Assembly (NCBI GenBank): GCA_025355645.1
Contig: JANXZG010000027.1
Location: 36,957 to 100,956 of the forward strand
Length of the DNA: 64,000 nucleotides
Source: Gammaproteobacteria bacterium
GTDB lineage: Bacteria > Pseudomonadota > Gammaproteobacteria > Steroidobacterales > Steroidobacteraceae
Direction of reading: 5' to 3'
Positions 19,538-34,556 of this stretch are shown piece by piece. The notes under the pieces were generated by a model, which ran no database searches, had not been told where the DNA came from, and worked only from the letters and a program-made list of their open reading frames with translations. How positions within the stretch are numbered: the first letter of the stretch is position 1; each line of letters opens with the position of its first letter. The position numbers and the translations under genes are program-made.

Positions 19538-20497
19538 CTAACGAAAACTCGGAAGGTTCGCCATTTCTTCGAGCGGCACGCCCTCGACGGGCAATCCGGC
19601 ACTTCTCCAGGCACGCAGCCCGCCCTTGATTACCGAGACGCGGACTCCCCTGTTCTGCAGTTCGCGCGCAACACGCACGCTGGTAGCTTCGCGAGCGCAG
19701 GTACAGTAAACATAGACCATCGGTCCGTCGGGCGATTCTTCGTTGAATCGGGTCAGCGTGTTGGGATCCAATCTTATGGAACCCGTAATGCGTGTTGCCT
19801 TGGCATCCAGGTAGCCATGGCTGCGCACGTCATATATGCGTGCTCCAAGCTTGATGAGTTGGGCCGCTTCGGAAGGATCCGCGAAAGGGACGGTGCGTAA
19901 CGCGCGCACCTTGACCCATTGCCAGGTTACATACCCCACATATGCAGCAATCAGCGCAACCACCACCCAGCCCGCCGCACGAGCGAACGATTGATAGCCT
20001 CGGGTGATTGTTCCGAGCGCGCCGCTGAAAAGAAAACCCATTCCAAAGAATGTAAAGATATAAAGACCAGCCCCAGCAAGGTCCAGCCCAAAGAACTGCA
20101 GCGGACGCATGTTCATCGAGCCAGCCAATGGTGGCGCCATCGTGTTGATCCCAGGAATGAATTTCGACACAACGAGCAACATCCGCCCGCGACGCAGGAA
20201 GGAGTCCGCCGAACTCAGGATGCAGGCCTCTGGGTTCAGTGAAATTCGGCAAAGCAAGCCGAGAAAGAACCAGCCTGTATAGCGACCCATCAAGAACATC
20301 AGGGTGTCCCCCGAAACTGTCGCTATAAGGGCACCGCCCAGGACATACGAACTGTGCAAGGAGCCACGCGCACTGGCGGCTCCGGCGATGAGCAATGCAA
20401 GGGCTGCGGGCAGCGGGAATCCGATCGCTTCCAGAAATACCACGGCGAACAGGATCGAGTAGCCGTGCGACGCGAGTCCGGAAATCCAGGCATCCAT
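19538..20497 (-). CDS. DedA family membrane protein fused to a rhodanese domain
   Basis: This is a 319-residue fusion. The first 200 residues are a DedA/SNARE-associated (VTT) integral membrane domain with about five hydrophobic segments and the conserved KFIPGINTMAPPLAGSMNM region; DedA proteins are implicated in lipid carrier (undecaprenyl phosphate, phospholipid) flipping. The last 110 residues form a cytoplasmic rhodanese domain (GARIYDVRSHGYLDA) with the active-site cysteine in YVYCTCAREATS. Rhodanese domains move sulfur or act as sensor/phosphatase folds; the role in this fusion is unknown. A paralogue with an extra thioesterase domain is at 33150. The gene is single, convergent with 18263 and preceded by a 279-base spacer. 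Confidence 0.88.
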   Translation of the reverse strand: MDAWISGLASHGYSILFAVVFLEAIGFPLPAALALLIAGAASARGSLHSSYVLGGALIATVSGDTLMFLMGRYTGWFFLGLLCRISLNPEACILSSADSFLRRGRMLLVVSKFIPGINTMAPPLAGSMNMRPLQFFGLDLAGAGLYIFTFFGMGFLFSGALGTITRGYQSFARAAGWVVVALIAAYVGYVTWQWVKVRALRTVPFADPSEAAQLIKLGARIYDVRSHGYLDAKATRITGSIRLDPNTLTRFNEESPDGPMVYVYCTCAREATSVRVARELQNRGVRVSVIKGGLRAWRSAGLPVEGVPLEEMANLPSFR

Positions 20498-28116: not shown

Positions 28117-28593
28117 ATGCACTCATCACTCGTACATCGCTTGCTTCCTGCAACCATCGCAATATTAGGAGCATTTGCCTTGGGCAATTCCGCCATCGCT
28201 GCTCAGGGCAAGGTGCAGCATCATCACAACGCCCACCAGCTGGTAGGCGAGAAGCTGAAACAAGAAGGCCATCATGAGATTGATCATAAAGGCAAATACA
28301 CGACATCCGTAGAAGTTAAAGGCGGCAAGATCGCAGGCCTGCATGTCAGGCATTCTGAGAAGGGCGATATTCCAGTCAAGAAATACAAGACGCATCGAAA
28401 GATGGCAGAAAATTCCACCGCACACCCGGTCTATGCCTCATACCGGCTGGCCCAGATGGAAGACTTGGGCACCGAGTACATCGGATATTCATACATTGAC
28501 GATCAGGGCAACGAGGAGATCTATTGGTTTCCGGCCGAGGAAATCTACGACGCGGATACAGGCGCCGTGGAGTACGTGCCGCTGAGTTCTTAA
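28117..28593 (+). CDS. Exported protein of unknown function
   Basis: ATG 28117 follows TGGAG and gives a 158-residue protein with a signal peptide (LLPATIAILGAFALGNSAIAA). The mature part starts with a His/Gln-rich stretch (KVQHHHNAHQLVGEKLKQEGHHEIDHKGKY) and continues with alternating strands (VEVKGGKIAGLHVRH) and EEIYWFPAEEIYDADTGAVEYVPL. The layout resembles small periplasmic PepSY-like or inhibitor-type proteins, but I do not recognise the family. It is followed by a hairpin terminator and is probably monocistronic. Confidence 0.75.
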   Translation: MHSSLVHRLLPATIAILGAFALGNSAIAAQGKVQHHHNAHQLVGEKLKQEGHHEIDHKGKYTTSVEVKGGKIAGLHVRHSEKGDIPVKKYKTHRKMAENSTAHPVYASYRLAQMEDLGTEYIGYSYIDDQGNEEIYWFPAEEIYDADTGAVEYVPLSS

Positions 28594-28619
28594 ATATTGG
28601 GACATCGATCCGCTGGGGC

Positions 28620-28646
28620 GAGGGCCACTCCTCAGGAGTGGCCCTC
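28620..28646. terminator. Hairpin terminator after exported protein gene
   Basis: GAGGGCCACTCCT-C-AGGAGTGGCCCTC is a perfect 13-base inverted repeat that would fold as an 11-base stem with a five-base loop, then TTAG. It lies 27 bases after the stop codon of the exported protein and also faces the convergent MBL pseudogene. Confidence 0.6.
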
Positions 28647-28659
28647 TTAGCGTACGATT

Positions 28660-29661
28660 CCCTTGATGTCTGGCTATAGAGGCGCATCACGAGCGGCACG
28701 CCACCTCGTACGCCGAGTTCCAATAGTCTTTCCGCTGGCTGGTCCCAGGCATGCATCGCCAGGCTAAACGTACCCCAATGGATCGGCAGGAACGGTCCCC
28801 CGCCGAGCAATGCCAAGGCTTTAAGTGCATTGTCGGGCCCGAGATGGATGTCCCCCCAGGCTGTATGGTAGGCGCCAATATCTCCAGCATCACGAGGTCG
28901 AATGGTCCAAGCCTTTCACGGATCACCTGGTACTCCGTGGTCAGTCCCGTATCCCCGCTGAAGAACACACTATGCCGCGCCGATCGAAGCACCAGGGAAG
29001 ACCCAGTGTTAGGTGGCGGTCTTTCAGGCCACGCCCGGAAAAATGCTGCGATGGTGCGGCGGTCACGTTGAGACCGGTACCGGGTACTTCGTGCGACTCC
29101 CACCAGTCGAGTTCAGTGATGCGTTCGGGACGCACGCCCCAGCCTTCCAGGTGCGCGCCGACGCCGAGCGATGTCACGAACGGCGTATCGCGTTTCACCA
29201 GCTGCCGGACGGTTGGGTAATCAAGATGGTCGTAATGGTCGTGGGATACCAACGCGAGGTCGATCTCGGGCAACGATCGAAACGGAACCGGAATGGGCTG
29301 AAATCGCTTCGGGCCAACGAAGCGAGATGGCGAGGCGCGCGGACCCCATACCGGATCGGTGAGCACCCGATGGCCGTCGATTTCGATCATCACGGTCGAA
29401 TGCCCGAGCCAGGTGGCCCGCAGGCCTGAGGCGGGCGCGCTCCTCCAGGTCTCCAGAGGATTTAAGGAAGGCAGGGGCCGGTTCGGCACTCGCCGGGGCG
29501 CCACCGCATAAGAAATCACTCAGGGTTGGCATTGGCACGGTTGGATCCCGTAGCCCCGCCATGACCGGGTGGATGTTGGCAAAGCGGTCGTCAGCCCATG
29601 TAGGCGATGACTTGACGCGCTCTTGCCGTTCGCCGTCTGGTTTTCGTCCCAGTGACTTCAT
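28660..29661 (-). pseudogene. MBL-fold metallohydrolase (NAPE-PLD-like), three frameshifts
   Basis: Four successive frames make up a protein of the N-acyl-phosphatidylethanolamine phospholipase D-like / UlaG-type MBL family. The first (from 29661) starts MKSLGRKPDGERQERVKS and ends near 29497 after TLSDFLCGG. The second has RVPNRPLPSLNPLETW, WLGHSTVMIEIDG and the metal motif SHDHYDHLD. It ends near 29002, where one base is missing, and the third frame carries SSLVLRSARHSVFFSGDTG. Near 28885 another shift leads to ALLGGGPFLPIHWGTFSLAMH. With three indels the gene is almost certainly dead unless the local sequence is poor. An intact member would be a cytosolic metal-dependent phosphodiesterase. 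Confidence 0.82.
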
Positions 29662-30341: not shown

Positions 30342-30878
30342 GTGAACACAAAAAATCACCTTGACCTCATGGACCCGGTGAGTGCTACTGATCATGTGCG
30401 CGGGCCTGGACACGCGCCGGTAACAATCGTCGAGTATGGAGACTTCGAATGCCCGACCTGCCGCGCGGCCGAGCCTGCCGTGCGAATGCTGCTCGAGCGC
30501 TCACCCAATGCCGTGCGGCTTATCTACCGTCACTATCCAATTGAAAGTGCCCATCCGCATGCCTTGATGGCGGCGGAAGCCGCAGAAGCGGCCGCGGCGC
30601 AAGAAAGATTTTGGGAAATGCACGATCTACTGATGCGCGAAGGCGCCAAGCTCCACCGTGCCGCGCTCGACAAGTATGCGGCGGACATTGCGCTCGCTCT
30701 CGCCCAGTTCAAGGCATCGCTCGACGACGAAATCTACCGGCAGCGAGTGCGCGAGCAGATGGCGGGCGCCAATCGCAGCCACATTCGTGCAACTCCTGGG
30801 TTTTTCGTGAATGGGCAGGTCTGCGATATATCGGGCGGCATGCAGTCGCTGGCCGATCGTGTCGCGCGGTTGTTGTGA
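30342..30878 (+). CDS. DsbA-family thioredoxin-fold protein
   Basis: This 178-residue protein starts with GTG 30342 after a GGGGAA stretch. It has the DsbA-type thioredoxin fold with active site DFECPTCRAAEPAV and the cis-proline loop RATPGFFVNGQ. No signal peptide is visible, so it is predicted to stay in the cytosol, unlike classical DsbA; such leaderless members often sit beside Na+/H+ antiporters or stress genes. The ferritin/CDGSH gene follows after 19 bases, so they are probably co-transcribed and may share a redox task. Confidence 0.87.
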   Translation: MNTKNHLDLMDPVSATDHVRGPGHAPVTIVEYGDFECPTCRAAEPAVRMLLERSPNAVRLIYRHYPIESAHPHALMAAEAAEAAAAQERFWEMHDLLMREGAKLHRAALDKYAADIALALAQFKASLDDEIYRQRVREQMAGANRSHIRATPGFFVNGQVCDISGGMQSLADRVARLL

Positions 30879-30897
30879 GCGGGCAGTAACGCTTTAT

Positions 30898-32904
30898 ATG
30901 GATGATAACGTAACCATGCCGGCTGTACCGCACCCCCACGCCCTGGGGGACGCCTCCCGTGAAATCCTGATCCACGCGCTGTACGAAGCGGCCGAGCTCG
31001 AGCACAACCTGATGTGCACGTACCTGTACGCTGCGTTCAGCCTGAAATCAGGGGTGGAGGAGGGCCTGAGCGCGGTGGAAGCCGAACTGGTTTCACGCTG
31101 GCGCCGCGAGATCATTGCAGTCGCGGTCGATGAAATGAGCCATTTGGCCGCTGTATGGAATATCACCTCCGCGCTGGGCGGCACGCCGCGCTTCGGGCGC
31201 GCTAACTTTCCGCTGGATACGGGTTACCTGCCGGCATCCGTGATCGTGAAGCTGGCGCCGTTCAACGCCGCGGTGCTACAGCATTTCATACACCTGGAGC
31301 GCCCGGCGGATTCGACCGAGCCGGACGGCGCAGGATTCGAGCCGGAACGAAAGTTCGTTCGCGGTACCGCGTCGAGATTGACGCCGATGGGCATCGACTA
31401 TGAAACGGTGGGCGAGTTTTACCTCGCGCTTGCGGAAGGATTGCGCAGCCTCGTCGCGCGGATTGGAGAGCCGGCGGCATTCTGCGGCGACCGGACACTG
31501 CAGCTGTCCGACAATGAGATCAACGTGCCGGGGGCGGTGCCTGTGGTGTGCCTGAAGACCGCGCTTGCGGCGTTCGATTCCATCGTGACCCAGGGCGAAG
31601 GCGCACGCGAGCACTTGGCCGGCTCCCATTTCGAACGATTCCGGGTGATACGAACGCAATTCGAGCAGCTCAACAGCGCAAATCCCGCCTTTTCGCCGGC
31701 CCATCCGGCGGCGACCAACCCGGTGCTGCGCAAGCCCCCGCGGCCGCAGGGGCGCGTATGGATAGAACACGCGCCGTCCTTTGCCACGGTCGATTTGGCC
31801 AACGCCGCCTATGCTTTGATGCTGCGCCTGCTCGCCTATGCCTATAGCGTGCAGGCCCCGCACCCGGACAAGGCGCTCGCAGTGGAGCTCGCAATAGGCC
31901 TGATGCGAGCGGTATCCCCGCTTGGCGAGCGCGCCGCGCGCCTGCCAGCGGGACCCTCGAACCCGGACTGCAATGCCGGCATGTCCTTCACGGCACTGCG
32001 CGACTCCGCCCCTTTTCCGGCGGGCGCAGCCGCGCGGCGGTTTTTTATCGAGCGGCTTGACGAGCTTGCGGTGGCTGCCAGGGACATGCGGCCGGCCGAT
32101 GATGCGCGGATTGCCAGGAGCACACGCGAGTTCAGCGCATTATCTGCACGCGCGAAGCAAGACTTCGATTTGTCGGCGCCCTCCCTGCCAGGAGTTGCCG
32201 GTGCCGCAGCGGCGCCCGTGGCGCCGGCTGTCGACAAGCCGGCTCGCGCTCCTGAGCTAAGCTCCGTCAAGGACGGGGTCGAGACGGTTGAGGGCAGGGC
32301 CCTGACATTGATGTTCGAGGGGCGCCTGTGCATCCATTCGCGTTTTTGCGTGACCGGAGCGCCCACGGTCTTCCTCGCGAATGTGAAAGGACCCTGGCTG
32401 CATCCGGACACCCTCGATGTCGAGCGGCTCGCTGCGGTCGCGCAGGAATGTCCTTCGGGCGCAATTCGTTACCGGCGCAAGGACGGCCGCCCGGATGAAA
32501 CCGCACCGCCCGTGAATCTCGCCGCAGTTCGTGAAGCAGGTCCCTACGCGCTGCATGGGGACCTGCGCCTGGATGGGGCATCCATCGGATATCGGGCGAC
32601 GCTGTGTCGCTGCGGCGCTTCAAAGAACAAGCCCTATTGCGACAGTTCCCATCATGAGATCGGCTTCACAGCAAGCGGCGAGCCGGCCACCGGCAAGGCG
32701 GACATGCTGCCGGTGCGTGACGGAGAGCTGCGCGTGGATCCCCAGGTTGATGGGCCCTTAAAGGTTCGCGGGAACCTTGAGATCATCAGTGGCACGGGCC
32801 GGGTCGTTGCGCGCACGACGACTGCGTACCTGTGTCGCTGCGGCGGAAGTGCCACGAAGCCTTTTTGCGACGGCACGCACGCGAAAATCGGATTTCGCTC
32901 TTAG
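30898..32904 (+). CDS. Ferritin-like / ferredoxin-like / double CDGSH iron-sulfur protein
   Basis: ATG 30898 (MDDNVTMPAVPHPHAL) gives 668 residues; the track start adds 29 codons overlapping the thioredoxin gene. Residues 10 to about 270 resemble the ferritin-like helical domain of iminophenyl-pyruvate-synthase/VioB-type proteins (HALYEAAELEHNLMCTYLYAA, AVAVDEMSHLAAVWN, with E-x(6)-H type metal ligands). After a proline/alanine-rich linker comes a Fer4_19-type domain (CIHSRFCVTGAP and AQECPSGAIRY), then two CDGSH zinc-finger-like 2Fe-2S motifs (LCRCGASKNKPYCDSSHHEIGF and the same pattern at the C-terminus, CDGTHAKIGF). The combination suggests a cytosolic di-iron and iron-sulfur oxidoreductase. 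Its reaction is unknown. It belongs to a four-gene co-directional run from 30342 to 34556. Confidence 0.85.
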   Translation: MDDNVTMPAVPHPHALGDASREILIHALYEAAELEHNLMCTYLYAAFSLKSGVEEGLSAVEAELVSRWRREIIAVAVDEMSHLAAVWNITSALGGTPRFGRANFPLDTGYLPASVIVKLAPFNAAVLQHFIHLERPADSTEPDGAGFEPERKFVRGTASRLTPMGIDYETVGEFYLALAEGLRSLVARIGEPAAFCGDRTLQLSDNEINVPGAVPVVCLKTALAAFDSIVTQGEGAREHLAGSHFERFRVIRTQFEQLNSANPAFSPAHPAATNPVLRKPPRPQGRVWIEHAPSFATVDLANAAYALMLRLLAYAYSVQAPHPDKALAVELAIGLMRAVSPLGERAARLPAGPSNPDCNAGMSFTALRDSAPFPAGAAARRFFIERLDELAVAARDMRPADDARIARSTREFSALSARAKQDFDLSAPSLPGVAGAAAAPVAPAVDKPARAPELSSVKDGVETVEGRALTLMFEGRLCIHSRFCVTGAPTVFLANVKGPWLHPDTLDVERLAAVAQECPSGAIRYRRKDGRPDETAPPVNLAAVREAGPYALHGDLRLDGASIGYRATLCRCGASKNKPYCDSSHHEIGFTASGEPATGKADMLPVRDGELRVDPQVDGPLKVRGNLEIISGTGRVVARTTTAYLCRCGGSATKPFCDGTHAKIGFRS

Positions 32905-32928
32905 CAGCTATCGTTACGGAGGCTTGTG

Positions 32929-33090
32929 ATGAACAAAAAAACAGTTGTGCCAGATCCCCCGCCGAAAACGCAGGACCCACCGTCACCCATGGCCCCGGAG
33001 CCGATTCCGAGTAGTGACGGGCGCCGCGATGAAGCGCTGGAAGATACGTTTCCGGCCGGCGATCCTGTGCCACCACGACAAGAGACATGA
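32929..33090 (+). CDS. Small proline-rich acidic protein with EALEDTFPAGDP motif
   Basis: This 53-residue gene is too short for the ORF track. ATG 32929 has an excellent ribosome-binding site, GGAGG, eight bases upstream. The product starts MNKKTVVPDPPPKT, is rich in proline and charged residues, and ends with DEALEDTFPAGDPVPP, a motif that recurs in many short proteobacterial proteins (DEALxETFPASDPP). No function is known for them; they are often found near stress genes. It lies 24 bases after the ferritin/CDGSH gene and 59 before the DedA fusion, so it is probably in the same operon. Confidence 0.8.
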   Translation: MNKKTVVPDPPPKTQDPPSPMAPEPIPSSDGRRDEALEDTFPAGDPVPPRQET

Positions 33091-33149
33091 TTGTTCCCGG
33101 ACCGGGTTAGCCTCACCAGGATGCCTACTGAACGTTACAGGCGCCTCTC

Positions 33150-34556
33150 GTGACGCTTCCGCTGGTGCCGATGGCAAGCCAGCTGGGCCTCGCGCTCGTG
33201 GTCGGCAACGTACTGCTGGACCAGCTCGGCCTTCCCGTGCCTGCGATCCCGACCATGGTGGTCGCGGGCGCGGTTGCATCGGAGCAGCACGGGTGGGGCG
33301 CGGAGCTATTCCTGGACTGCGTACTGGGATACGTCTTTGCGGATATGGCCTGGTATGTGGCCGGCCGCCTGTATGGCAACCGGGTCATGAAGATGCTGTG
33401 CTGGATATCCCTGACGCCGGATTCGTGCGTCAGCGAGACGCAATCTCGCTTCGAGCAGTGGGGACCCAACGGGATCATCATCGCCAAGTTCATCCCGGGC
33501 TTTGCCATCATTGCGCCGCCTTTGGCCGGCGCCATGCGCATGCGCTGGCAGCGGTTCGTGTTTTTCAGCTCCATTGGCGCTGCGCTCTGGGTCGGTTGCT
33601 TTCTCGGCGTCGGCATGCTGTTCAGGTCGCAGATCGATCGATTGATGCCTATCGCGGAGCGATTTGGTACCAGTCTTGTCGCCGTGGGGCTTGCCGCGCT
33701 GATCGGCTATATCGCCTTCAAATGGTGGGAGCGGCGACGCTTCTATGCGCAACTGCGCATGGCGCGCATCAGCGTCAGAGAACTTTATGAACTGATGGAC
33801 TCGGGCGCCACTCCGCTGATCGTGGATGTACGCTCGCCAAGTGCAGCAGCGCGGGAATCCCGAAGGATTCCGGGCGCCTTGCATGTACCGCTCGACCAGG
33901 TTGGCGAGCATGTGCAGGACCTGCCGCGCGACCGCGACCTTATCTTGTATTGCAATTGCCCAAATGAGGCCTCCGCGGCGCAGGCTGCAAAGCTGCTGAA
34001 GAACCATGGATTCACCCGCGTGCGCCCGCTGCATGGCGGCCTGGATGCCTGGGTGGAGGCAGGCTATGCCGTCGAGCCATTTTTGGGGGGAGCGCGCAGT
34101 ATGATGCCCGCGCCTTGCACTTTTTCAACGCGACCGGAACAACCGACTATGCAGAACATCCCGGTAGGATCCCAAGGCTCGTACTCCGTGCTGGTGACGA
34201 CCGAGCACCTGGCCAATCGCTTCAAGGACGTGACGCTGCCGCCCGTGTTCGCTACACCCATGATGATCATGCTGATGGAAAATGCGGCACTGAATGCGAT
34301 CAAACCCTTTCTGGACGCTAGCGAGACCTGTGTCGGCACGCGGGTGGACGTGACGCACCTGGCCGCGACGCCGGCGGGGATGACGGTCACCGCAAAAGCG
34401 CAAGTCACCGCGGTGAATGGCCGAAAAATCGAATTTCATATCCAAGCGTCGGACGGAATCGACACGATCGGCGTCGCCACGCATGAACGGGTCATCATCG
34501 ATCGCAGCCGGATGGCCGAACGGCTGAAGGCAAAGTCAGCCGCTGCCGGGCTCTAG
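33150..34556 (+). CDS. DedA-rhodanese-thioesterase three-domain fusion
   Basis: This 468-residue protein has residues 1 to about 195 as a DedA/VTT membrane domain (AKFIPGFAIIAPPLAGAMRM), about 205 to 315 as rhodanese (TPLIVDVRSPSAAARES, active cysteine in LYCNCPNEAS), and 334 to 460 as a hot-dog thioesterase of the fluoroacetyl-CoA-thioesterase (FlK) type. The third part has the Thr/Glu pair in FATPMMIMLMENAAL and the histidine in THLAATPAGMTV. The first two domains match the paralogue at 19538; the third is additional and begins where a normal thioesterase gene would begin (an ATG at 34149). No stop codon separates them, so this is either a true fusion or two genes joined by a lost stop. The stop codon overlaps that of the convergent CPBP gene by four bases. 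Confidence 0.82.
   Translation: MTLPLVPMASQLGLALVVGNVLLDQLGLPVPAIPTMVVAGAVASEQHGWGAELFLDCVLGYVFADMAWYVAGRLYGNRVMKMLCWISLTPDSCVSETQSRFEQWGPNGIIIAKFIPGFAIIAPPLAGAMRMRWQRFVFFSSIGAALWVGCFLGVGMLFRSQIDRLMPIAERFGTSLVAVGLAALIGYIAFKWWERRRFYAQLRMARISVRELYELMDSGATPLIVDVRSPSAAARESRRIPGALHVPLDQVGEHVQDLPRDRDLILYCNCPNEASAAQAAKLLKNHGFTRVRPLHGGLDAWVEAGYAVEPFLGGARSMMPAPCTFSTRPEQPTMQNIPVGSQGSYSVLVTTEHLANRFKDVTLPPVFATPMMIMLMENAALNAIKPFLDASETCVGTRVDVTHLAATPAGMTVTAKAQVTAVNGRKIEFHIQASDGIDTIGVATHERVIIDRSRMAERLKAKSAAAGL

Follow-up and report, generated by a model that had tools for sequence, protein, structure and literature searches.

CDGSH (NEET) proteins are widespread in bacteria, yet little is known of their chemistry or of the partners with which they work. 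In one described architecture, the type 7 CDGSH subtype DCC, a DUF1271/Fer4_19 domain precedes a pair of CDGSH domains (Lin et al. 2011, PMC3174974), and bacterial CDGSH proteins with Fer4_19 and with Ferritin-like domains are already on record in a published survey (Sci Rep 2018, PMC5859297). Fusions of DedA to rhodanese are known as well (Todor et al. 2023, PMC10127716); they are common, and are also annotated as 'DedA family protein/thiosulfate sulfurtransferase GlpE'.

We examined a locus in which parts of these kinds lie side by side, within a 64,000-nucleotide stretch of DNA (the window). Four co-directional open reading frames (ORFs) occupy positions 30342-34556, separated by gaps of 19, 24 and 59 bases:

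30342..30878, + strand: leaderless DsbA-like (Thioredoxin_4) protein, GTG start, 178 aa (ORF list, Pfam, DsbA tree)
30898..32904, + strand: protein with ferritin-like, Fer4_19 and two CDGSH domains, 668 aa (ORF, Pfam, alignment, structure model)
32929..33090, + strand: acidic, proline-rich, probably disordered protein, 53 aa (ORF; not conserved as a neighbour of the ferritin gene)
33150..34556, + strand: DedA (VTT)-rhodanese-FlK fusion ORF, GTG start, 468 aa (ORF, Pfam, relatives)

The original prediction of four intact co-directional genes with these gaps agrees with the ORF coordinates, and Pfam recovered every domain that it had named. About 680 bases without an obvious gene precede the dsbA-like ORF, while the last ORF ends tail-to-tail with an opposite-strand gene for an Rce1-like (CPBP) protein. 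A promoter and terminator scan of the locus gave no useful signal. Nearby, on the minus strand (28376-29661), a gene for an MBL-fold (Lactamase_B_2) hydrolase is split over several frames and looks decayed; relatives with longer open frames are present in the same genus.

The ferritin-like/Fer4_19/CDGSH protein

The 668-residue protein is divided as follows:

30982..31653, + strand: PF12902 ferritin-like domain, with conserved E35, H36, E79, H82, E134, E234 and H244 (Pfam, alignment, fold match to 3hl1)
32290..32481, + strand: Fer4_19 (DUF1271) domain, with invariant C478, H480, C484 and C518 (Pfam, alignment)
32605..32652, + strand: first CDGSH motif, reading CDSSH, with C570, C572, C581 and H585 (Pfam, alignment)
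32749..32883, + strand: second CDGSH domain, with C646, C648, C657 and H661 (Pfam, alignment)

Residues 29-252 match PF12902 at 6.4e-37, and the score of 128 bits against a curated cut-off of 22.3 places the protein in that family. Fer4_19 (2.2e-15, residues 465-528) and zf-CDGSH (5.7e-29, two stretches) follow in the order of type 7 DCC. In an alignment of 35 homologues, all of the ferritin-like residues listed above are kept, E35, H36, E79, H82, E234 and H244 being of a type that can serve as metal ligands, as are three further cysteines of that half (40, 218 and 358). The E79xxH82 half-site of a putative di-iron centre is invariant; a second canonical ExxH was not seen in this alignment, though E234 and H244 are conserved. 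Cysteines 478, 484 and 518 and His480 of Fer4_19 are invariant across the same homologues, and '4Fe-4S' is the name of the family, the cluster type here being putative. Both 3Cys-1His sets of the CDGSH domains are invariant or present in 34/35, and the set remains intact in the first motif of the window protein despite its reading CDSSH.

AlphaFold predicts a helical N-terminal half with confidence (pLDDT 80-98 in most blocks), and the model matches the ferritin-like protein 3hl1 (E 3.5e-6), with Dps and ferritins weakly behind, so that a ferritin-like helical bundle is the predicted fold. The C-terminal half is of low confidence (pLDDT mostly below 60). A search of a viral structure library gave no match.

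Relatives at about 58-70% identity occur at no fewer than 80 named species loci, mainly in Pseudomonadota and Myxococcota, and at least 64 of the 80 species loci listed hold full-length one-gene copies. The protein is not a one-off; it is a type 7 'DCC' CDGSH protein fused to a PF12902 ferritin-like half. The gene is nevertheless rare within broad genome samples, with one match among 369 class genomes and one among 399 phylum genomes at E <= 1e-100, the window's own genome set aside. Three Sphingomonas loci (L141, L144 and L146) retain the ferritin-like half but lack the CDGSH part. Plasmids yielded one near-full-length gene, from Asticcacaulis (45%), with no DsbA annotated beside it, and we rejected the idea of a plasmid-borne module. 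The neighbours of the ferritin-CDGSH gene are mostly lineage-specific: of 67 genes recorded immediately upstream of it, 11 are prfC (release factor 3; e.g. at L077, L086 and L095), 9 code for an acyltransferase and 5 are LysR genes.

Two other functions might be proposed for such a protein. It could be a biosynthetic oxidative enzyme like VioB or RebD, in which the ferritin-like half would oxidatively couple an imine derived from an amino acid, and NCBIfam does give a weak VioB match (6e-14, two stretches, best at residues 219-354). However, the score is 50.8 bits against an equivalog cut-off of 1250, for which reason we rejected VioB membership, and the ferritin-CDGSH gene has no recurrent biosynthetic neighbours; we regard this reading as very unlikely. 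Alternatively, the protein could store iron or donate Fe-S clusters, with iron held in the ferritin-like half, labile [2Fe-2S] clusters handed by CDGSH to damaged proteins, and DsbA acting on cysteine ligands. The domain set fits, and the CDGSH clusters of NEET proteins are labile and transferable. However, PF12902 is not known to be a cage-forming ferritin family, and ferritins and Dps match the predicted fold weakly; we judge a storage or donor role unlikely.

Recurrence of the dsbA/ferritin-CDGSH pair

The dsbA-like protein matches both Thioredoxin_4 (3.7e-26) and DSBA (2.1e-17) in Pfam and carries the CXXC motif expected of such proteins, CPTC (Cys37/Cys40, at 30450-30461). Its sequence, read by eye, has no hydrophobic leader of the kind that forms the signal peptide of a periplasmic DsbA. 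The cytosolic DsbA usual in the genus adjoins htpG, an HtrA-like protease gene or DnaJ in many genus members, and the window's genome holds only one close match to it. The DsbA tree places the window protein inside a five-member, ferritin-linked clade (support 96/93) and outside the htpG-linked clade of its own genus; therefore the pair appears to travel together, and on the simplest reading dsbA moved jointly with the ferritin gene.

Some observations on DsbA genes elsewhere may be recorded here. Among genus and family relatives (L195-L213), DsbA stands beside htpG (Hsp90), an HtrA-like protease and DnaJ, which is a proteostasis neighbourhood. Directly after the DsbA gene of one of these genomes (G064) lies an ORF (L195:6889-8592) whose N-terminus resembles, by eye, a cyclic-nucleotide-binding domain; the rest may be a fused part that is thioredoxin-reductase-like. 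A short DsbA-like fragment (L218:614-799) lies in the window's genome on a different contig.

The pair was found in the window and at five other loci (G053, which is L072, and G069, L089, L116 and L117), in varying gene order, and a DsbA-NhaA fusion adjoins the ferritin-CDGSH gene in G031 and G051 (the latter being L139). Five of the 80 listed ferritin-CDGSH loci (L072, L089, L116, L117 and L139) have a same-strand Thioredoxin_4/DsbA neighbour, and about 75 lack one. With such genes occurring at a background density of about 0.74 per Mb, roughly 0.1 would be expected among the 80 (binomial 6.6e-9, the loci being treated as independent despite their shared ancestry). Variants of the calculation, in which shared ancestry is likewise ignored, give 2e-7 when strand is disregarded and 3e-5 for 3/75. 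In the ferritin tree the DsbA-linked copies sit in four places and need four changes, at least three of them forced by well-supported branches. The pairing is real, recurrent across lineages and well above chance.

These figures bear on the view that the genes are chance neighbours, an accessory ferritin-CDGSH gene having landed next to stress genes that are unrelated to it and have no function in common with it. The absence of the four-gene order elsewhere, the mostly lineage-specific neighbours (prfC, acyltransferase, LysR) and the decay of the nearby MBL-fold gene all speak for it. However, adjacency to DsbA recurs in both orders, with different DsbA lineages and far above background, and we consider chance neighbourhood rather unlikely.

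The DedA-rhodanese-FlK frame and the four-gene arrangement

The 468-residue ORF matches VTT (6.4e-11), Rhodanese (4.8e-16) and FlK (1.6e-34, profile PF22636). Two features mark the join of its last two parts:

34080..34090, + strand: T5G6 run at the rhodanese/FlK junction; a TGA of a neighbouring frame overlaps an ATG just downstream (sequence)
34149..34556, + strand: FlK-type thioesterase part; the Met codon at 34149-34151 corresponds to the position at which stand-alone FlK genes of relatives begin (Pfam, relatives)

The six G of the joint (34085-34090, beside five T) form the only such run in the island, and in relatives the DedA-rhodanese protein ends shortly past the rhodanese domain. The 22-residue linker has a GC3 of 0.55 against 0.76 on each side, although about 6.5% of windows of this size within the gene are as low. 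Because of the T5G6 run, the overlap of TGA and ATG in the neighbouring frame and the stand-alone FlK starts in relatives, we treat the three-way fusion as unproven; the join may reflect a genuine recent fusion, slippage at the run or an indel in the assembly. The fusion was seen in none of 148 relatives or 369 class genomes besides the window, no plasmid match covered 80% of the query, and viral contigs held no relative. We rejected DedA-rhodanese-FlK as a protein family, the extra FlK being seen only in the window. The Thr/Glu/His residues of FlK (T42, E50 and H76) keep their spacing in this ORF. DedA flippases of COG0586, which act on undecaprenyl-phosphate, carry two arginines in helix 2, and their re-entrant helix 1 contains acidic residues (PMC10127716); by eye, and unaligned, the stretch KFIPGFAIIAP of the DedA part lacks the Arg pair. 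The window encodes another DedA-rhodanese fusion on its minus strand (19538-20497), with about 30% identity to the island copy.

A good ribosome-binding site (GGAGG) precedes the ATG of the 53-residue protein, which matches no Pfam family. With only weak motif matches elsewhere, it was rejected as a conserved partner.

The four genes had originally been proposed to form one undescribed system with a redox, sulfur and lipid stress task. Their order recurs in no other genome across the 80 ferritin-CDGSH loci and the full-length copies in relatives, and as a conserved system the island fails. The nearest approach is G069, in which ferritin-CDGSH, dsbA and DedA-rhodanese genes follow one another on one strand with short gaps, over two contigs, the ferritin gene being cut by a contig end. 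However, the whole set is common to no other genome examined, DedA-rhodanese and FlK are each located elsewhere in relatives, and the 53-residue gene has weak matches only. The four-part system is thus highly improbable, and already largely refuted by genome comparison. What survives of the shared system is the pair, which recurs in several lineages and in both orders; the 53-residue protein and the FlK fusion are unshared, and the membrane DedA-rhodanese protein joins the pair in that one further genome. The surviving unit is a two-gene association whose parts are of known kinds and whose combination is a new variant.

A possible function and its relation to known systems

We suggest, tentatively, that the core of the locus is a two-gene accessory module, in which one gene encodes a self-wired ferritin-like/Fer4_19/CDGSH redox protein and the other a DsbA-like thiol protein of the cytosol. 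Electrons would pass from the [2Fe-2S] clusters of both CDGSH domains, and from the cluster of Fer4_19, to a putative di-iron centre in the ferritin-like half, and this centre might reduce peroxide or oxygen, or oxidise iron. The DsbA-like protein could protect or reset the cysteine thiols of the ferritin-CDGSH protein or of its targets during oxidative stress. The module would act in the handling of iron or oxidative stress. DedA-rhodanese is a loosely attached, common membrane protein, and its FlK extension is a local and possibly indel-dependent join. Gene adjacency and residue conservation are observed directly, while we infer how the protein is wired, that it has a di-iron site and what DsbA does. 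The literature that we searched held no paper naming CDGSH and DsbA together. That the pair forms a thiol-iron redox module of the cytosol, not described before and shared horizontally, in which a rubrerythrin-like protein has its own CDGSH electron donors and a DsbA-like thiol partner, is in our view possible but doubtful.

The window protein has the same Fer4_19-CDGSH-CDGSH arrangement as type 7 DCC, and adds an N-terminal PF12902 half of about 430 residues. The survey of PMC5859297 reports the same domain types with CDGSH and, in its accessible part, gives neither a function for the combination nor a DsbA neighbour. Caulobacter CC_0557 (3hl1) shares the N-terminal fold and profile; it is a chain of 317 residues, and the match is confined to the ferritin-like half. 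VioB shares the PF12902 profile, but is a longer biosynthetic enzyme. Like the known DedA-rhodanese fusions, the window ORF joins these domains in one chain, and only the window ORF has the extra FlK thioesterase. The likeness to rubrerythrin is one of principle only, in that rubrerythrin couples a ferritin-like di-iron domain with an iron domain that supplies its electrons, an arrangement predicted here too. However, rubrerythrin belongs to another ferritin-like family and uses rubredoxin, whereas the window protein would use CDGSH and Fer4_19 for its putative activity. A ferritin-like domain in the same chain, together with a recurrent thiol-redox neighbour, provides a directly testable hypothesis, namely that CDGSH clusters feed electrons to a di-iron site.
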